A stretch of DNA of 64,000 nt, from contig WHVD01000027.1 of the NCBI GenBank assembly GCA_015178975.1, positions 496,001 through 560,000 on the forward strand, given 5' to 3'. This document shows positions 368 to 17,248 of this stretch, piece after piece. Within the stretch, counting starts at the first letter, position 1; each line of letters starts with the position of its first letter. The notes beneath the pieces were generated by a model that was not told the DNA's origin, did not search any database, and was given only the letters and a program-made list of their open reading frames with translations. This DNA is from Hysterangium stoloniferum (taxonomy: Eukaryota; Basidiomycota; Agaricomycetes; Hysterangiales; Hysterangiaceae). The translations under genes and the position numbers were made by a program.

Positions 368-796
368 TGTCACAACCATCACATGTCATGTATTGTCACA
401 AACATTCAAAGGTAACTTTCGACAACTCTTCGACCTATCGAATTCAACTCGACAAACTGAACATTAATCGACACCATCGAATCTTTTTCGACATGTCTCA
501 TTTTGACGTCATATATGATTTCATAATTAGTTCATAACATAGTCATAACGATACGACGAAAAGCATAAAAGGGCTATGAAAGAAGCGAGGGAAGTCAGTC
601 GAAATATCTGTATATTAGTGATATTAGTAATCTACTTTGTCATAACCTCTTCGACAAATACTTCCGTGAGTTCTCGCGACTGGTAATAGCCTCTTACTTC
701 ATCGACAGGGCGAATATATACTTCATCGAATGAGGCTTTCGAGTTTGATTAGTAGAATATTATTCGACTTTATCGAAGAATAATCGATTCGTGACA
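368..796 (+). repeat. Left LTR of the gypsy element
   Basis: Begins TGTCACAACC and ends TTCGTGACA, giving TGTCAC/GTGACA terminal inverted repeats. Bases 704-796 match 5310-5402 closely with equal length (93 bases). A promoter-like stretch with ataaaagggc lies near 563-575, followed by a motif (gaagtcagtc) also found in the related LTRs at 10254-10290 and 16110-16150. Confidence 0.75.
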
Positions 797-820
797 GTAT
801 ATTTCGACTATCAACTGTTG

Positions 821-2146
821 ATGAAGCCCAGGATGCGATCTGAGACTACCAAAGCATCAAGTTCCACAGCACTTCAATCTGTGGCTCCCACTCCTTCACC
901 GAGAGTTATTCGGCCATCGCGAATTCCAGTTTCTCCTTTAACCAAAACTAGAAGAACTGCAATGTCTTCAATCCGAGAACCTGAAGAAGTTCGAGAAGAA
1001 CCGATCTTGCCAATTCAAGAATCTGAATCCCCTTTAACTCCTTTGCCCGAATCTCCACGACCTGAACCTGTTACGTCTGAGGATGAAACAATGTTTCGAC
1101 ATTTCGGAGATGCACTCGGAAAAGTATTGAAGGACCAGATAGTTTCGAAGGAGCACGAAATCACAGTGAATAAGCCCAAAGAGTTTACTGGAGAAGAACC
1201 TGCGATGTTGAAGAATTTTATCGCTCAATGCGAAATGGTCTTTCGATCTCGACCAAAATCGTTCGAATCCAATCAATCAAAAATTACAATGGTGACCTCG
1301 TATTTCTGGAAAATGGCTCAAGAGTGGTGGCAACCTTTTCTATTAAATCCCCCAATTCCTCTGCCATCTTTCCTTGTGGATTATCTCGACTTTCTAGATG
1401 AATTATATGCTCAGTTTGGAGAAATTGATGCAGAAGGAGAAGCTGAAGAAAAACTTGATAATCTTTGAATGAAAGCTCATCATCATGTTGTGAAGTATTC
1501 GATTCAATTTACGAGTCTTGCTGCTCAAACTCGATATGACGAATTCGCTTTATGACGACGATTTTATAAAGGACTTCCAAATCGAATTAAGGACGAAATA
1601 GTGAAGCTTCAAGTTCAACCCAAAAGTTTTGCCGAACTGCGAACGGCAGCCCTTCAACTCGATTCTTACTATTGGATGCGAGAGAATGAATGACAACGCG
1701 AAACAGAATCAAGTTCGACTCCGCGAAGATTTGAAAGAAGACAATCAACGACACCTACGACGTATCCTTCGACATCACGAACACCTTCGACTTCTAAACC
1801 GACAACTTCGACTTCAAGAACATTTAGGCCTTCGACTCAAGTGAAGCCATCTTTGACAATTTTAGGACCCGATGGACAATTACTTCCTGCCGAATGAGAC
1901 AGAAGATTTAAGGAAGGGTTATGTATATTATGTGGGGAGAAAGGTCATTTGGCAAGGGATTGTCCAAAAAGAAAAACTCGTCAAATTGCAAAAGGACGGA
2001 TCGTTGAAGTCCAAGATTCGACAACCCAATCTGACCATTCGAATCAAGCATCAAATGTTAAATCGGAAAATTGAAATGGGATACTCTTCAGGCATGTGAA
2101 GAGTATTGAAGAAAACTCAATCACGCCGAAAAAGATTCCTGTGTAA
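821..2146 (+). pseudogene. Gypsy gag pseudogene with CCHC zinc knuckle
   Basis: Frame 2 from ATG 821 to TAA 2144-2146. The retrotransposon gag core is clear (EFTGEEPAMLKNFIAQCEM, then MAQEWWQPF, LDELYAQFGE). The nucleocapsid knuckle CILCGEKGHLARDC is at 1922-1963. Five in-frame TGA codons interrupt it at 1466, 1553, 1691, 1895 and 2072, with no frameshift; around 1553 and 1895 the neighbouring residues suggest arginine was lost. The ATG lies only 24 bases from the LTR end, leaving little room for a primer-binding site. Confidence 0.8.
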
Positions 2147-5100
2147 TATTACAAGTGGTAACAATTTCTGATTCTTTAATTATTGAACTTAAATCGAAAA
2201 AAATTCCAAAAATGAAAGCATTAATTGATTCAGGATCTAGTCATCTTTTTATGGACAAAATGTTTGCATGACAAAATAATCTATCTTTCGACCAATTGAA
2301 AAATCCGTTATCATTAAAATTAATTGACAGATCGACTCCGACATCAGGACAAATCACGTATATGACTACATTACAAGTTTATTTTCCATCTGGACAAATT
2401 CAAGAATTACAATTCTTTCTAACCAATCTTGACTCGTCTTGTCAAGTGGTATTAGGACTCAACTGGCTGAAGCAATACAATCCTGTGATTGACTGGCGAT
2501 CTGGCCGTATATCGTTTGAATCTACTTCGACACCTTTGACAAATCCGAATCTGATTCAACCATCAATTGAAACGTTATTGGAAGAGAAGCATGCTTCGAC
2601 CTCGGTGAGTCATTCATCGACATCTGAGAAAATCCGTGAAGAATCGAAATCCAAGACTGTTAATCCGAATATCAATATAGTCAATCAAAAGACTTTCTTA
2701 CGAGCTGCAAAAGCAAAAGACTCTCAAACCTTTGTGGTCTTCATTCATGATGAATCTTTCAAGACTTGTAAGGCCTCTGGTGCAAAAACTACGACTTCGA
2801 CTTCATTCAACATACCGAACATTCTGACCGAATATTCCGACTTCTCGGATGTTTTCGACAAAAAAGAAGCTGAAGCTTTACCTCAACATCGAAGTTATGA
2901 TCACGCTATCCCATTAGAAGAAGGAACTATTCCACCTATGGGTCCGATCTATTCGTTATCCGAGACAGAACTTCAAGTGCTACGAGAATATCTCCAAGAG
3001 AACCTTTCGAAGAAGTTTATTCGATCGTCACAATCTCCTGCCGGTGCACTGATTTTGTTCGTTAAGAAGAAAGATGGAAGCTTATGACTTGGTGTCAACT
3101 ATCGAGGACTAAATAAAATCACACGGAAAAACCGATATCCACTTCCTTTAATTCCTGATCTTTTGGATTGACTTCGAACGGTGAAATATTTTACGAAAAT
3201 CGATCTCCGAGGCGCTTATAATTTAGTTAGGATTGCTCCAGGAGATGAGTGGAAAACAGCCTTTCGGACTCGATATGGATCTTTCGAATATTTGGTTATG
3301 CCTTTTGGACTATGCAATGCTCCGGCAACCTTTCAACAATTAATGAATGAAATATTTTCAGATTTACTTGATATTTGGGTAATTATCTATCTCAACGACA
3401 TACTAATATTTTCCGACAATCTCAAAGAACATTTACGACAAGTTCGAGAAGTTCTTCGACGGCTTCGACAAAATCGATTATTTGCAAAACCCGAAAAATG
3501 CGAATTTCACAAAACCAGTGTTGAATTTCTAGGATACATTATTTCTCCTCAAGGCATATATATGGACGAAGAAAAAATCAAAGTTATTCAAGACTGGCCT
3601 GAACCGCAAAAAGTCCATGACATTCAATCATTTTTAGGATTCGCAAATTTCTATCGAAGATTTATTCCAAGTTATTCTGAAATCGTTTTACCATTGACTC
3701 GACTTACTCGAAAAAAGGTTCAATGGCATTTCGATGAAAAATGTCGACATGCATTTAACTATTTGAAAAAAGAATTTACTACAGCTCTGATTTTAATTCA
3801 TTGGAATCCAGATTACAAACCTATACTCGAAACTGACGCTTCTGATCATGCCATAGCTTCAATATTTTCTATGCAAACTCCCGATAACGAAATTCATCCA
3901 GTCGCTTATCATTCAAGAACTCTTTCGACCTCCGAAATCAATTATGACACTTACGATAAAGAATTATTGGCAATATTCAAATCTTTCAAAATTTGGTGAC
4001 ATTATTTCAAAGGAACAAAAGAACAAATTGAAGTTTTAACGGATCACAAGAATCTCAAATATTTTGCGACAACTCGAATTTTGTCTTGATGACAAGCTTG
4101 ATGGGCAGAATATTCATCGACCTTTAATTTGATTATTCAATTTCGACCGGGAAAACTAAATTTGAAAACAGATGTTCTTTCAAGAAGAAATGACATTTAT
4201 CCGAATGAACCTGACTACTCGAAAAAGAATCCAACTAATCTTCAACCGGTATTTACGAATGAGCAAATTCAAGCTTCCTTACGTGCAACATATTATCTTC
4301 CAATAGCAAGAAAAGCTACACTTATTATGGATACGGATCAACTATTGAAAGATATATTCAAAGCTCAAAAAAAAGATCAATTTACTCTCGACAAGATTCA
4401 ACAGATTTCCGACAGTACCGAAGAAGATTGGCAAAAGAACGAACAAGACTTTTTATGTTTCCAAAACAGAATTTACGTTCCCGATTATCAAACTCTTCGA
4501 CTTCGAGTTCTTCAATCATGACACAATCATATTACTGCAGGCCATTTCAGTCAAACGAAAATGTATCAAACAATATATCGAGATTTCTTTTGGCCACAAC
4601 TCCGACAAGATATTCAAAATTTTATTCGATCATGCGTAACGTGTACAAAATCAAAAACTCCACGACATTGACCCGTTGGATTACTTAAGCAACTTCCGAT
4701 CCCTCTTCGACCATGGCATTCAATCTCGATGGACTTTATTGAACAATTACCAACCTCGAATGGTTATGACTCAATACTCGTAATCGTTGATCGACTTTCG
4801 AAACAAGCAATATTCATTCCAACTTATACAATGATTAACGCTCCCGAACTCGCTCGACTTTTCGTATTACATGTCTTTTCAAAACATGGAGTCCCCAGTC
4901 ATGTAACTTCTGATCGAGGATCCGAATTCGTGTTGCATTTCTTTCAATCTCTCGGAACAGCACTCGACATGAAATTACATTTCACTTCTGGTTATCATCC
5001 TGAAGGCAATGGACAAACCGAATAAGTTAATCAAACTCTCGAACAATATTTACGAATATATTCCAATTATCAACAAGACAATTGGGCCGAATTACTTCCT

Positions 5101-9949: not shown

Positions 9950-10838
9950 GTGACATCACATGATTTTGTTAATATGACCCAATTGGAGGTAAACAATCAA
10001 CAAGGTCACATGACTGTAAGCATTATAGTCATCAAAGTTGCCAGCAAAAAAACCCTTCGCATGAGTCTCTTGTATATAAATATTTGTAATATTTCCATAT
10101 TTGGAGCTTATGAAATGGCATCATACCTCCATAATCTAGATATGATAGTGCATGTTCACAAATATTCTTGATATTTGTGGATTTTTATTCTTTGAGTTAT
10201 CAGGGATATAAGTCTGAAGTACAAAACATGCGAAGGGTTTTTTGAGTCACTGTAGTATAAAAGGGCAATGATAGGAGCAAGAGAAGTCAGTCAGAAAACC
10301 TGTACCATAATCTGTATCTTTAATATTGTAATATTATTTTGACTTCTATTGTTACGACCGGAATTCCCGCTGGACTCCGGGCACTAACTTATATGCACCC
10401 ATGCCCTATACGCACCAATTGTCAGTTTACCGGAATTCCCTCCAGACTTCGTATGTCAGACCTGTCCACATTTAACTTCGTTACATCATGTATCAGTCAC
10501 CGGAATACCCACCAGACTCCATCCCTGTCTATGTCCGACTCTGTCCCACACATCAGTCACTGGACCCCACACGGAAAACCTGTCATCCCTCTAACTGAGC
10601 CCCATTCCCATTTTAGTCAATGACCTGTCACGATTTGGACTCCACTCCTGCTCCATTTCCCATTATGGTTTATGACCTGTCATGATTTGGACTCCGCTCC
10701 GTTCCATTCCATTCCTAACACCAAGTTTGGTGTTTACTTATCTTGTTTTATGTTTGCTAGTTTATTTTCATTATTACTGGATTTGGTATGTTATTCATTC
10801 CACAGTCTATATAGTCTGGCAGATGTTGTACATACAAT

Positions 10839-11082
10839 TGTTAGATTATATAATACCAACCATTGTTCCAACTGGGTCCATATGGTGTACAGCTCTGAGT
10901 TCAGTGTGTATATGATCTAATAGGAATGGCACTTAGGGTTATATCCTTAAGTACAGTATAAGGCCAAACCTACCCAAGGTCAGATAGTGTAGTGGTTAAC
11001 ACCTTCGTTATGTAATTGAGAGATCCTGGGTTCAATCCCCAGTCTGGCTATTCATTTTCTACATTACTTGTGTTTTCTAACA
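10839..11082 (+). mobile_element. 244-bp TG...CA mini-element carrying a tRNA-like sequence
   Basis: Starts TGTTAGATTATATAATACC and ends GTGTTTTCTAACA, with TGTTAG/CTAACA terminal inverted repeats. ACAAT is duplicated on both sides (10834-10838 and 11083-11087). The other three LTR copies lack this block and read straight across the junction. The ends and the 5-bp duplication are those of a small LTR integrated by a retroviral-type integrase; inside is a tRNA-like unit with A and B boxes. I see no protein-coding capacity. Confidence 0.8.
10978..11049 (+). other. tRNA-like sequence (Asp-type body, broken anticodon arm)
   Basis: 72 bases that fold as a tRNA cloverleaf. The acceptor stem GGTCAGA pairs along its length with TCTGGCT (with G-U pairs), the D stem GTGT pairs with ACAC, and the T arm is CTGGG TTCAATC CCCAG. 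The A box (tagtgtagtgg) and B box (ggttcaatcc) of RNA polymerase III are intact. The anticodon stem TTCGT/TTGAG has a mismatch at the loop and the loop TATGTAA lacks U33, so decoding is unlikely. From memory of fungal tRNAs the D and T arms look like tRNA-Asp. Confidence 0.65.
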
Positions 11083-11514
11083 ACAATCTAGTTAGAAAAT
11101 CAGCTTAGATTCTCCCTAGTAATCTAGTACATTTTTTGCTCTAAACTCCTCTTTGAATTACACCACTCTCACTAGTCAGAGCCCATGGGCTCTGATGCAT
11201 CTATCTCTCAACCTCCAACTTATTTATCTCAACTCCCCAACCTCTCGACCCACAACCTCTCGACCCACAACCTCTTGACCCACAACCTCTTGACCCACAA
11301 CCTCTCGACCCACAACCCCTCAATCCACGAACTCCGCCCGGACTCCCTGGGATTCCCATCCACCTGTTTGAAATTGGACAACACGATCTCGTGAGGGCAC
11401 AGCCTATAAGCTGAAGCCAAGTCCTACTGGATCTCCTGCAGGTTTCTCCAGAAACCCTCTATGTATGCACCCTTAACATCTATTCATAATATCTTTGATA
11501 TAATTACTGGTGTG

Positions 11515-12383
11515 TGTTAAGAGTTGTGTGCAGAGCTTATCGGAGGGCTTCTGGAGAAACCCACAAGAAAGCCAGTAGGACTTGGCTTCAGCTTATAGGC
11601 TGCACCCTCACAAGATCGTCTTGTCCAATTTCAAATGGGTGGATGGGAATTCTGGGGAGTCTGGGAGGGGTTCGTGGGTTGAGAGGTCGGGAAGTTGACT
11701 GCGGGAATTCTGCAGAAGTTGAGGGGTTGGGCAGAGATGAGTCAGAGGTCAAGATAGATAGGTAGGTTAAGTGATAGATGGGTCAGAGCCTGTGGGCTCT
11801 GATGAGGTAAAGCAGTGTGTTTCAAAGAGGAGTTTAGAGGGGAAAATGTACTTGGATTACTGGGGAGAATCTAAGCTGATTTTCTGACTGGATTGTATGT
11901 ACAACATCTGCCAGACTATATAGACTGTAGAATGTATAACATACCAAATCCAGCAATAATGAAAACTAAACTAGCAAACATAAAATGAGATAAGTAAACA
12001 CCAAACTTGGTGTTAGGAATGGAACAGAGTGGAGCAGAGTCCAAATCATGACAGGTTGTAAAACCATAATGGGAATGGGGTGGGAGCGGAGTTCACATTG
12101 TGACAGGTCATTTGACCATAACAGGAATGGGGCTCAGTTAGAGAGCTGTTGGGTTTTCCAAGCAGGGTCTGGTGACTGGTGCATGGGACAGGGTTGGAGA
12201 TAGACAGGAGCAGGTTCTGGTAGGTATTCCAGTGACTGATACATGAAGTAATGAAGGTCGAGTGTGGACAGGTCTGACATACAGAGTCTGGCAGGTATTC
12301 TGGTAAACTGATAATTGGTGTGTGTAGGGTGCAGGTGCATATAAGTTAATGCCCAGAGTCTGGTGGGTTTTCTGGTCATAACA
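11515..12383 (+). repeat. LTR, family copy B
   Basis: 869 bases from TGTTAAGAGTTGTGTG to GGTCATAACA, homologous to copies A, C and D. The tandem section (about 11680-11760) is degenerate. Flanks GTGTG and CAGAG do not match, so this copy is not a clean solo insertion; it faces copy A 36 bases away. Confidence 0.75.
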
Positions 12384-14394: not shown

Positions 14395-15288
14395 CACACA
14401 CAGGCCGGGTTTCCGGAGAAACCCGCGGGATATCCGGTAGGACTTGGCTTCAGCTTATAGGCTGCGCCATTGCTAGATTGTGTTGTCCAATTTCAAACGG
14501 ACGGACGGGGATCCCGGGGAGTCCGGGCGGGGTTCGTGGGTCGTAGGTCGTAAGTCGGAGGTCGTGGGTCGTAAGTCGGAGGTTGTGGGTCATAAGTCGG
14601 AGGTTGTGGGTCGTAAGTCGGAGGTCGTGGGTCATAAGTCGGAGGTCATGGGTCGTGAGTCGAGTTGGTTGAGAGAGATAGATGCGCCGGAGCCCGTGGG
14701 CTCCGACTAGTGCGAGCGATGTGAATCGAGTAAGGTTTTAGAGCGGAAAATATTATTAGATTACTGGGGGGAATCTAAGCTAATTTTCTGACTGGATTGT
14801 ATGTACAACATCTGCCAGTTTATATAGACCATGGAGTGAATGACATACCAAATCCAGTAATGGTGAAATGAAACTAACAAAACATGAAACGGGAATAGTA
14901 AACACCAAATTGGTGTTAGGAACGGAACGGAACGGAGCGGAGTACGAATTGTGACAAAGCATAACCCATAACGGGAAACGGAGTGGGAGCGGAGTCCTAA
15001 ATCGTGACAGGTCATTTGACTAAAACGGGAACGGGGCTCGATTAGAGTGGTGACGGGATTCTGAGCGGGTTCCGGTGACTGATGCGTGGGACAAAGACGG
15101 ACATAGACAGAGACGGGATCCGGGGGAAGTCCGGTGACTGATATGTGTCTTAATGAGGTCGAACATAACGAGTCTTGACGTAACGGAGTCCGGGCGGGAA
15201 ATCCTATAAACAGACGATTGGTGCTTGTAGCGCGTGGGGGCGTACGAGTTAGTGCCCGGAGTCCGGCGGGATTTGTCCGGTCGTAACA
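14395..15288 (+). repeat. Solo LTR, family copy C
   Basis: 894 bases from TGTTAGGATACACAC to GGTCGTAACA, with ATGGA on both sides (14390-14394 and 15289-15293). It contains the 21-bp tandem array near 14535-14660 and the hairpin GGAGCCCGTGGGCTCC near 14688. Confidence 0.88.
14535..14660 (+). repeat. 21-bp tandem array inside LTR copy C
   Basis: About six units close to gtcgtaagtcggaggtcgtg plus one base. Each unit is built of three related heptamers (gtcgtgg, gtcgtaa, gtcggag). In copy D (16400-16510) the unit is 28 bp, four heptamers. Confidence 0.75.
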
Positions 15289-15829: not shown

Positions 15830-17248
15830 TGTCACAAATGTACAAACTCAAATTTTAATAATATTCAATTTAACATTTCTTTAACATTTCTTCGACATTT
15901 CTTTGACATTTCTTTGACATTCCTTTGACATTTCTTCGACATTCCTTTGACTTTCTGACTTGACTTCCAACTCAACTTCCGACTCAACTTCTGACTCGAC
16001 TATTCTTCAACAATATCTTTGACAATCTCGAATATCTTCAACTTGTCTCAGGTTGATGTCATTGACAATTTCACTTTGATATCATATTATCATCATAGGT
16101 AAATGATATATAGTATATAAGGGCAATGATAGGAATGAAGGAAGTCAGTCAGAAAACCTGTATTATATTATATTATTACTGTATTACATAATCGTCGAAC
16201 TTTTCCGAGTCCTTCTTTGACTTATTTATTCGTGAGCCTCTGTGTCCTATCTTTGCCTCTGTTAGGATATGTACAGGGCGGGTCTCCGGAGAAACCCGCG
16301 GGATATCCGGTAGGACTTGGCTTCAGCTTATAGGCTGCACCCTCGCTAGATCGTGTTGTCCAATTTCAGACAGGCAGATGGGAATCCCAGGGAGTCCGGG
16401 TGGGGGTCGTGGGTTGTGAGTTGTAAGTCGGAGGTCATGGGTCGTGAGTTGTAAGTTGGAGGTCATGGGTCGTGAGTTGTAAGTTGGAGGTCATGGGTCA
16501 TGAGTCGAGACTGGTGAGAGAGATAGATACCCCGGAGCCTGTGGGCTCCGACTAGTGCGTACAGTGTGAATCAAGCAAGGGTTTAGAGCGGAAAATGGAT
16601 TAGATTACTGGGGAATCTAAGCTAATTTTCTGACTGGATTGTATGTACAACATCTGCCAGTTTAAATAGACCGTGGAGTAAATGTCATACCGAATCCAGT
16701 AATAATGAAATGAAGTGAGCAAAACATAAAACGGGAATAATAAACACCAAATTGGTGTTAGGAACGGGACGGAGCAGAGCGGAGTCCGAATCGTGACAAA
16801 ACATAACCCATAATGGGAAATGGAGCAGGAGCGGAGTCCAAATCGTGACAGGTCATTTGACTAAAACGGGAACAGGGCTCAATTAGAGCAGTGACGGGAT
16901 TCTGAGCGGGGTCCAGTGACTGATGCGTGGGACGAAGATAGACATAGACAGAGACGGAGTCCGGGGGAAGTTCAGTGACTGATATGTATTGTAATGAGGT
17001 TGAACGTAACAAGTCTTGATGTACGGAGTCCGGGTGGGAAATCCTATAAACAGACATTTGGTGCGTGTAGGGCATGGTGGCATACAGGTTAGTGCCTGGA
17101 GTCCAGCGGGATTGTTCGGTCGTAACAGCCTCATGCTTTATCAACAGGATGAATTAATACTTCATCGAATGAGGCATCTTTATTTGATATTGTTGAATAT
17201 TCTTCAATTGTTTATTCAACTTTATTGAGTAAAATTTGATTCGTGACA
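15830..17248 (+). repeat. TGTCAC-type LTR split by LTR copy D
   Basis: Starts TGTCACAAATGTAC and ends GATTCGTGACA. Without the insertion it is about 546 bases. It carries tatataagggc near 16110 and is the forward partner of 12723-13220. A copia-type gag starts only five bases after its end. Confidence 0.8.
16260..17127 (+). repeat. Solo LTR, family copy D
   Basis: 868 bases from TGTTAGGATATG to GGTCGTAACA with GCCTC on both sides (16255-16259 and 17128-17132). The unfilled site is visible in reverse at 12836-12848, where the host LTR reads straight through, so both the duplication and the insertion are certain. It has a 28-bp tandem array near 16400-16510. Confidence 0.92.

Follow-up and report, generated by a model that had tools for sequence, protein, structure and literature searches.

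The block at 10839-11082 of the window (the whole 64,000-nucleotide stretch of Hysterangium stoloniferum DNA analysed here) raises the question of what kind of element joins LTR-type ends to a tRNA-like interior. The first-pass annotation called this combination odd and gave Cassandra of plants as the nearest parallel. That it lacks a named parallel did not hold, because TRIMs with tRNA-derived sequence in the LTR were named Helenus in 2024 (Kojima, 2024; PMC10886601, cited here and below for its text without figures or supplement). According to that text, Helenus occurs in fungi, animals and one plant, with the 5S-bearing Cassandra as its sister type, and its agaricomycete hosts include Agaricus bisporus, Coprinopsis cinerea and Amylostereum areolatum (PMC10886601). 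The family to which the block belongs, family A, fits Helenus (TRIMp3), a class known since 2024, as judged by its sequence features, and the ‘odd combination’ is thus an already named class. The best explanation as a whole, and a highly probable one, is that 10839-11082 is the solo LTR of a Helenus-type, gene-less TRIM, with a putative pol III promoter and a cycle that would depend on a Copia helper.

The block and its genomic copies

The block comprises 244 bases, begins with TGTTAG, ends with CTAACA and has ACAAT on either side; direct reading bore out both the ends and the perfect duplication that had been claimed for it. The claim that three sister copies of the host repeat lack the block was likewise confirmed, as the joined flanks, free of the insert, align to the minus strand at three positions in the window, and ACAAT occurs once at each of them. 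The features of the insertion site are:

10834-10838, no strand: target site duplication, left copy; ACAAT, read directly, identical to the right copy
10839-11082, plus strand: solo LTR of a family-A TRIM (Helenus type), TGTTAG...CTAACA; 40 scored genome copies, and two-LTR copies with the same LTR
11083-11087, no strand: target site duplication, right copy; ACAAT, read directly
11831-11951, minus strand: empty site 1, a sister copy of the host repeat across the insertion point; 92% over 121 columns against the joined flanks
14737-14855, minus strand: empty site 2; 87% over 119 columns against the joined flanks
16581-16697, minus strand: empty site 3; 84% over 119 columns against the joined flanks

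The window copy is a solo LTR without an internal part, and it is the only copy of the block in the window. A long imperfect inverted repeat at 10350-12383, with six arm pairs that are 79-96% complementary, holds the element, and parts of this repeat also lie at 14737-14855 and 16581-16697. Elsewhere in the window, at 791-3999, open frames resemble, by eye, pieces of a Gypsy-type polyprotein (gag, protease, RT).

A search of the source genome (111 Mb, 554 contigs) gave at least 40 copies of family A at 96-100% identity, these being the best 40 of 418 first-look candidates scored, with the match confined essentially to the block. The copies fetched, which are the best-scoring ones and not a random sample, yielded 51 distinct LTRs, of which 28 form 14 pairs and 18 are solo; the other 5 stand singly at loci that contain internal sequence and are excluded from the duplication counts. 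Complete elements consist of a 244-bp LTR, an internal part of 166-169 bp and a second 244-bp LTR; the 14 two-LTR copies span 647-657 bp, with room for at most 56 codons in the internal part. Perfect 5-bp duplications flank 13 of the 14 two-LTR copies and 14 of the 18 solo LTRs, three further solo LTRs agree at four of five bases, and no matching duplication flanks the two-LTR copy L039 or the solo LTR L024. Two solo LTRs (L021 and L023) have the same duplication, GGTAT, and may represent one event. Seven of the 14 LTR pairs show no substitution, which means that some insertions are recent; the maximum is six, and three of the other pairs contain gaps. Directly 5' of the 3' LTR, in the place of a polypurine tract, the G-rich sequence AAGGGGGTG stands in all 14 two-LTR copies and is, by eye, a candidate for that tract. 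One locus (L111) holds a nested or tandem family-A copy.

These copies decide two alternatives. The presence of one copy alone in the window would suit a single chance capture, that is, a tRNA pseudogene inside one solo LTR of an ordinary retrotransposon, and the annotation had allowed for this if other copies did not exist or lacked the tRNA-like part. All 51 LTRs carry the region, in 13 versions, including both LTRs of the 14 two-LTR elements, which refutes the capture and leaves it a negligible probability. The multi-copy family with differing 5-bp duplications and a shared tRNA-like core that the annotation had envisaged is thus present, as are full elements with two such ends and a primer-binding site (PBS). 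tRNA-derived SINEs lack LTRs, are mobilised by LINEs and have duplications of variable length. Family A resembles them in its pol III boxes, small size and noncoding nature, but its two direct LTRs, TG...CA ends, PBS, G-rich tract and fixed 5-bp duplications refute this assignment, to which we give practically no credence.

The tRNA-like part of the LTR

Rfam gives a single match at the gathering threshold in the window, the tRNA at 10978-11050 (47 bits against a cut-off of 29). Within it, TAGTGTAGTGGT and GGGTTCAATCC are taken as boxes A and B by the general consensus:

10978-11050, plus strand: tRNA-like region; Rfam RF00005 at 47 bits, ARAGORN and fold; paired acceptor, D and T stems and a weak anticodon stem
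10985-10996, plus strand: presumed box A of a type-2 pol III promoter, TAGTGTAGTGGT; mean variability 0.0036 per site in 46 LTRs
11028-11038, plus strand: presumed box B, GGGTTCAATCC; 0 changes in 46 LTRs
11055-11058, plus strand: TTTT, proposed weak pol III terminator adjoining the 3' side of the tRNA-like region; the longest T-run is 4 in 20 of 21 elements of families A, C and D

The first-pass annotation had described a tRNA-like gene with paired acceptor, D and T stems, intact boxes A and B and a broken anticodon arm. The stems (from the cmscan alignment and fold) and the boxes stood up to inspection; the anticodon arm is indeed weak, but as a trait of family A and not through decay of the window copy, since all 51 LTRs give one of 13 tRNA-like versions and the weakness is seen by eye across the family. 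The window copy differs at six positions from the majority of the 46 LTRs of exactly 244 bases, the set on which variability was measured after the 5 of 51 LTRs with other lengths were dropped. Boxes A and B are less variable than the anticodon arm in this set. That arm, however, contains both CpG sites of the majority LTR sequence, and the low variability of the boxes is therefore not evidence of selection; the invariance of box B is weak evidence as well, because the LTR copies are so alike. The fold of the tRNA-like part as a whole is no better than that of shuffled sequences (z -0.14).

ARAGORN finds a tRNA in both LTRs at three loci. Its call of tRNA-Thr (tgt) on the block would agree with a functional tRNA gene that is spread by the LTR element and raises tRNA dosage. 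We consider this very unlikely, given that an anticodon stem judged weak by eye is common to the 13 family-A versions and that the identity assigned by ARAGORN is inconsistent between copies, one LTR of L031 being called tRNA-Tyr (gta). A role of the LTR tRNA as the element's own primer was not supported either, as the PBS matches the initiator tRNA and the tRNA-like part ends in TCTGGCT against the AGTTGCTA that the PBS requires (compared without a separate alignment).

Sister families, primer sites and shared modules

By following the internal part of family A we reached three more families, so that at least four related families (A to D) are present in one genome. Family B, whose LTRs carry a tRNA-like part, has nine loci, of which eight were examined: an end was found at six, giving LTRs of 223-274 bp, and none was found at L051 and L056. 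Its duplications are perfect over 5 bp at L055, L057 and L058, agree at four of five bases at L053 and are absent at L050 and L054; its copies, mostly 77-86% alike to the query copy, are old. Family C has an LTR of 128 bp, which is approximately a tRNA-like gene plus LTR ends and has, by eye, an intact anticodon stem, and an internal part of 155-159 bp; duplications are perfect in all four of the nine loci measured. Family D has an LTR of 206 bp and an internal part of 109 bp at L107, and perfect duplications in all three of the six loci measured.

Two C-type loci (L098 and L100) are arrays in which the LTR alternates with the internal part. In L098 (C520:240900-242100), about three 220-bp units of a family-C derivative are flanked on both sides by TTTAT, although their LTR, reduced to 66 bp, no longer contains the greater part of the tRNA-like sequence, boxes A and B included. 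Numerous tRNA genes (L064-L088) that resemble one another, measure 94-95 nt and apparently contain an intron occur on C112 (about 0.99-1.22 Mb), C68, C526, C98 and other contigs, in both orientations and several of them about 420 bp apart; they have CTCTTA in the anticodon region and are, by eye, presumably Lys-CTT-like. These clustered matches (C112, C68 and others) were considered as a further TRIM family and rejected, as five units have no evident TG...CA ends.

The families differ in how they match their presumed primer. The family-A PBS, TGGTAGCAACTCCA, adjoins the 5' LTR and is the 14-nt antisense of the 3' end, CCA included, of initiator tRNA-Met as encoded by this genome's genes. The T-loop pattern TTCRANYC combined with the PBS complement had no match in the genome; the initiator tRNA carries ATCGAAA and was found by a pattern adjusted accordingly. 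Families A and D match the 3' end of this tRNA, whereas the internal part of family C opens with GGTTATGGGCCCCGC, 15 nt antisense to the anticodon arm of the same tRNA. For Copia, anticodon-loop tRNA priming is described with Ty5 and Drosophila Copia as named examples, a primer site in common with Copia is reported for fungal Helenus, and a primer at the initiator tRNA 3' end has been recorded in some fungal Helenus elements and in one Copia element (PMC10886601, in its text).

The sequence CANGTTATGGGCCCC has 716 exact sites in the genome, against 0 for its reversed control. Among the matches listed (100 of these sites and 33 Copia RT matches on contigs C1 to C35), 13 RT matches lie 2.6-4.5 kb downstream on the same strand, compared with four in control placements (upstream or on the opposite strand). 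Eight sites were read, and the three of these tested against Pfam all gave copia gag-type models with E below 0.01, one of them above the curated cut-off. From the placement of the RT matches and these gag-type matches, family C shares its primer site with autonomous Copia-type elements of this genome, and families A and D differ from those elements in matching the 3' end of the same tRNA. Copia RT domains are abundant (the best 150 of 1270 first-look candidates were scored), with many identical scores and open frames of 1373-1416 aa, which suggests recent Copia activity. Exact sites of CATGGTAGCAAC number 33, against six for the reversed control; they include 20 in family A, six in family D and one (L110) in neither, and among the 27 of 33 examined no autonomous element with the exact family-A 3'-end PBS was recognised. 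Earlier site sets, limited to sites of exact length and exact match, likewise gave no recognised autonomous partner with a 3'-end PBS (28 sites; 27 of 30 sites).

Two further modules are shared between families. Families A and D have in common CCAAGATCGAACCTGGAGTGTAG, a 23-nt block that is similar, in sense orientation, to the initiator tRNA's T-arm, with AACCTGGAGT (10 nt) as the longest exact stretch; it has 26 sites at up to three mismatches (all but C179:856053 inspected) against 0 for the control, is lacking in the D copy L109 and has no site in the family-C loci read. Covering of the PBS by this block was considered as a structure common to A and D and rejected on this test: in the single family-A internal part folded, pairing is predicted with a probability of 0.99 and the fold has a z of -4.6 (300 mononucleotide shuffles), whereas the single family-D internal part gives 0.01 and a z of 0.04. 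The second module, of about 90 nt, contains a proposed hairpin and belongs to the internal part in families A and C and to the LTR in family B. In 30 chosen copies (9 A, 9 B and 12 C; 28 distinct), from whose alignment the hairpin was itself derived, the consensus hairpin accounts for pairing in 97.1% of cells, a share that falls to 26-48% when it is slid, and none of 500 shuffles reaches the covariation score of 0.217 (shuffled mean 0.178). Only two pairs changed on both sides; 76 of 500 shuffles reach that figure, and 330 of 500 reach the observed count of pair types. Conservation of the hairpin thus has moderate support, because related sequences can exceed shuffles without any structure and the hairpin comes from its own alignment.

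Families A and C share both the tRNA-like part and the hairpin module, and A looks like a mosaic of a C-type element (tRNA-like part, module and 3' internal end) and a primer cassette of D. A broader and rather doubtful reading, offered tentatively, is that pol III TRIMs may be built from exchangeable cis-acting cassettes that move between families: a primer cassette (the 3'-end PBS with a sense T-arm mimic able to cover it) and the hairpin module, perhaps for packaging. Through such exchange, family A would have given up the anticodon primer used by its Copia helpers, taken the intact 3' end of the tRNA instead and nevertheless continued to be copied.

Promoter use, life cycle and class

In the proposed cycle, the tRNA-like part of the 5' LTR would serve as a pol III promoter, with a start near 10978 (about LTR position 135-140) and read-through of weak TTTT stops into the 3' LTR. 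The transcript, about 0.5 kb long, would carry the tRNA-like part at both ends as its R region. The 3' end of the host initiator tRNA-Met would anneal at the site adjoining the 5' LTR, an autonomous element, most likely among the many Copia elements of the genome, would supply reverse transcriptase and integrase, and insertion would produce the 5-bp duplication. The anticodon arm would be dispensable under this proposal, because the sequence would act as a promoter and not as a tRNA.

The T-runs bear on the read-through step. The longest run is four in 13 of 14 family-A, all four family-C and all three family-D elements measured, one family-A copy (L035) having T6 in its 3' LTR, while 27 of 30 sampled tRNA genes, many of them near-identical array copies, have T5 or more within 25 nt and three have T4 only. 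This shortage would be consistent with a weak stop that pol III passes on its way through the 5' LTR, although, with copies related within each family, it amounts to three independent observations at best. Among the three initiator tRNA genes, one (L089) has T4 only and the others T6 and T7; given that T4-only tRNA genes exist, T4 could also be a full terminator here, in which case short RNAs alone would be made.

Alternatively, family A could be a TRIM transcribed by pol II, with a tRNA-like stretch that has no role in transcription and is carried along as a passenger or offers processing enzymes a landing site. A TATA-like TTATATAATA at LTR positions 8-17, the weak anticodon arm and a tRNA-like fold that does not exceed shuffles would agree with this. 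The LTRs of A and C, however, align over only one long stretch, formed by the tRNA-like part and the adjoining LTR tail; T-runs of five or more are nearly absent, box B is unchanged in 46 LTRs (a weak point among copies so alike), and other Helenus families have conserved boxes according to the text of PMC10886601. On balance we regard pol II transcription as unlikely, and the preferred reading remains that of a Helenus-type TRIM with a putative pol III promoter.

As far as the text of PMC10886601 describes them, Helenus elements are short and noncoding, with two LTRs, boxes A and B in each LTR, a PBS and a polypurine tract; family A has this layout, with a tRNA-derived LTR bearing both boxes, a tRNA-complementary PBS, a polypurine tract recognised by eye and 5-bp duplications. 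The likeness extends to the 5-bp duplications of fungal members, several families per genome, solo LTRs, initiator tRNA-Met primers at the anticodon loop and 3' end, and Copia as the likely partner. In comparison with Helenus as described there, families A and D add the sense T-arm-like block beside the 3'-end PBS, and the hairpin module is internal in A and C and inside the LTR of B; we found no mention of either in the literature searched, which included that paper's text without figures or supplement. The plant TRIM Cassandra likewise has a pol III promoter from a small RNA gene in its LTR, that of 5S rRNA instead of a tRNA (PMC10886601, text), and the window has no 5S match at the gathering threshold. 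Ajax, a nemertean TRIM with a 5S rRNA promoter, shares the TRIMp3 layout and 5-bp duplications and differs in its 5S origin and its hosts (PMC10886601, text).

What is new here is a genome with four such families beside likely Copia helpers, and a recently mobile element of a class named in 2024 was picked out from raw sequence alone. Such solo LTRs also disseminate tRNA-like sequences, which tRNA gene finders then annotate as genes; ARAGORN did so here. Because the primer sites of the sister families correspond to two different regions of one tRNA, a single organism could serve to test primer switching and dependence on a helper and, if the cassette reading is true, the primer choice of the parasite would be uncoupled from that of its helper.
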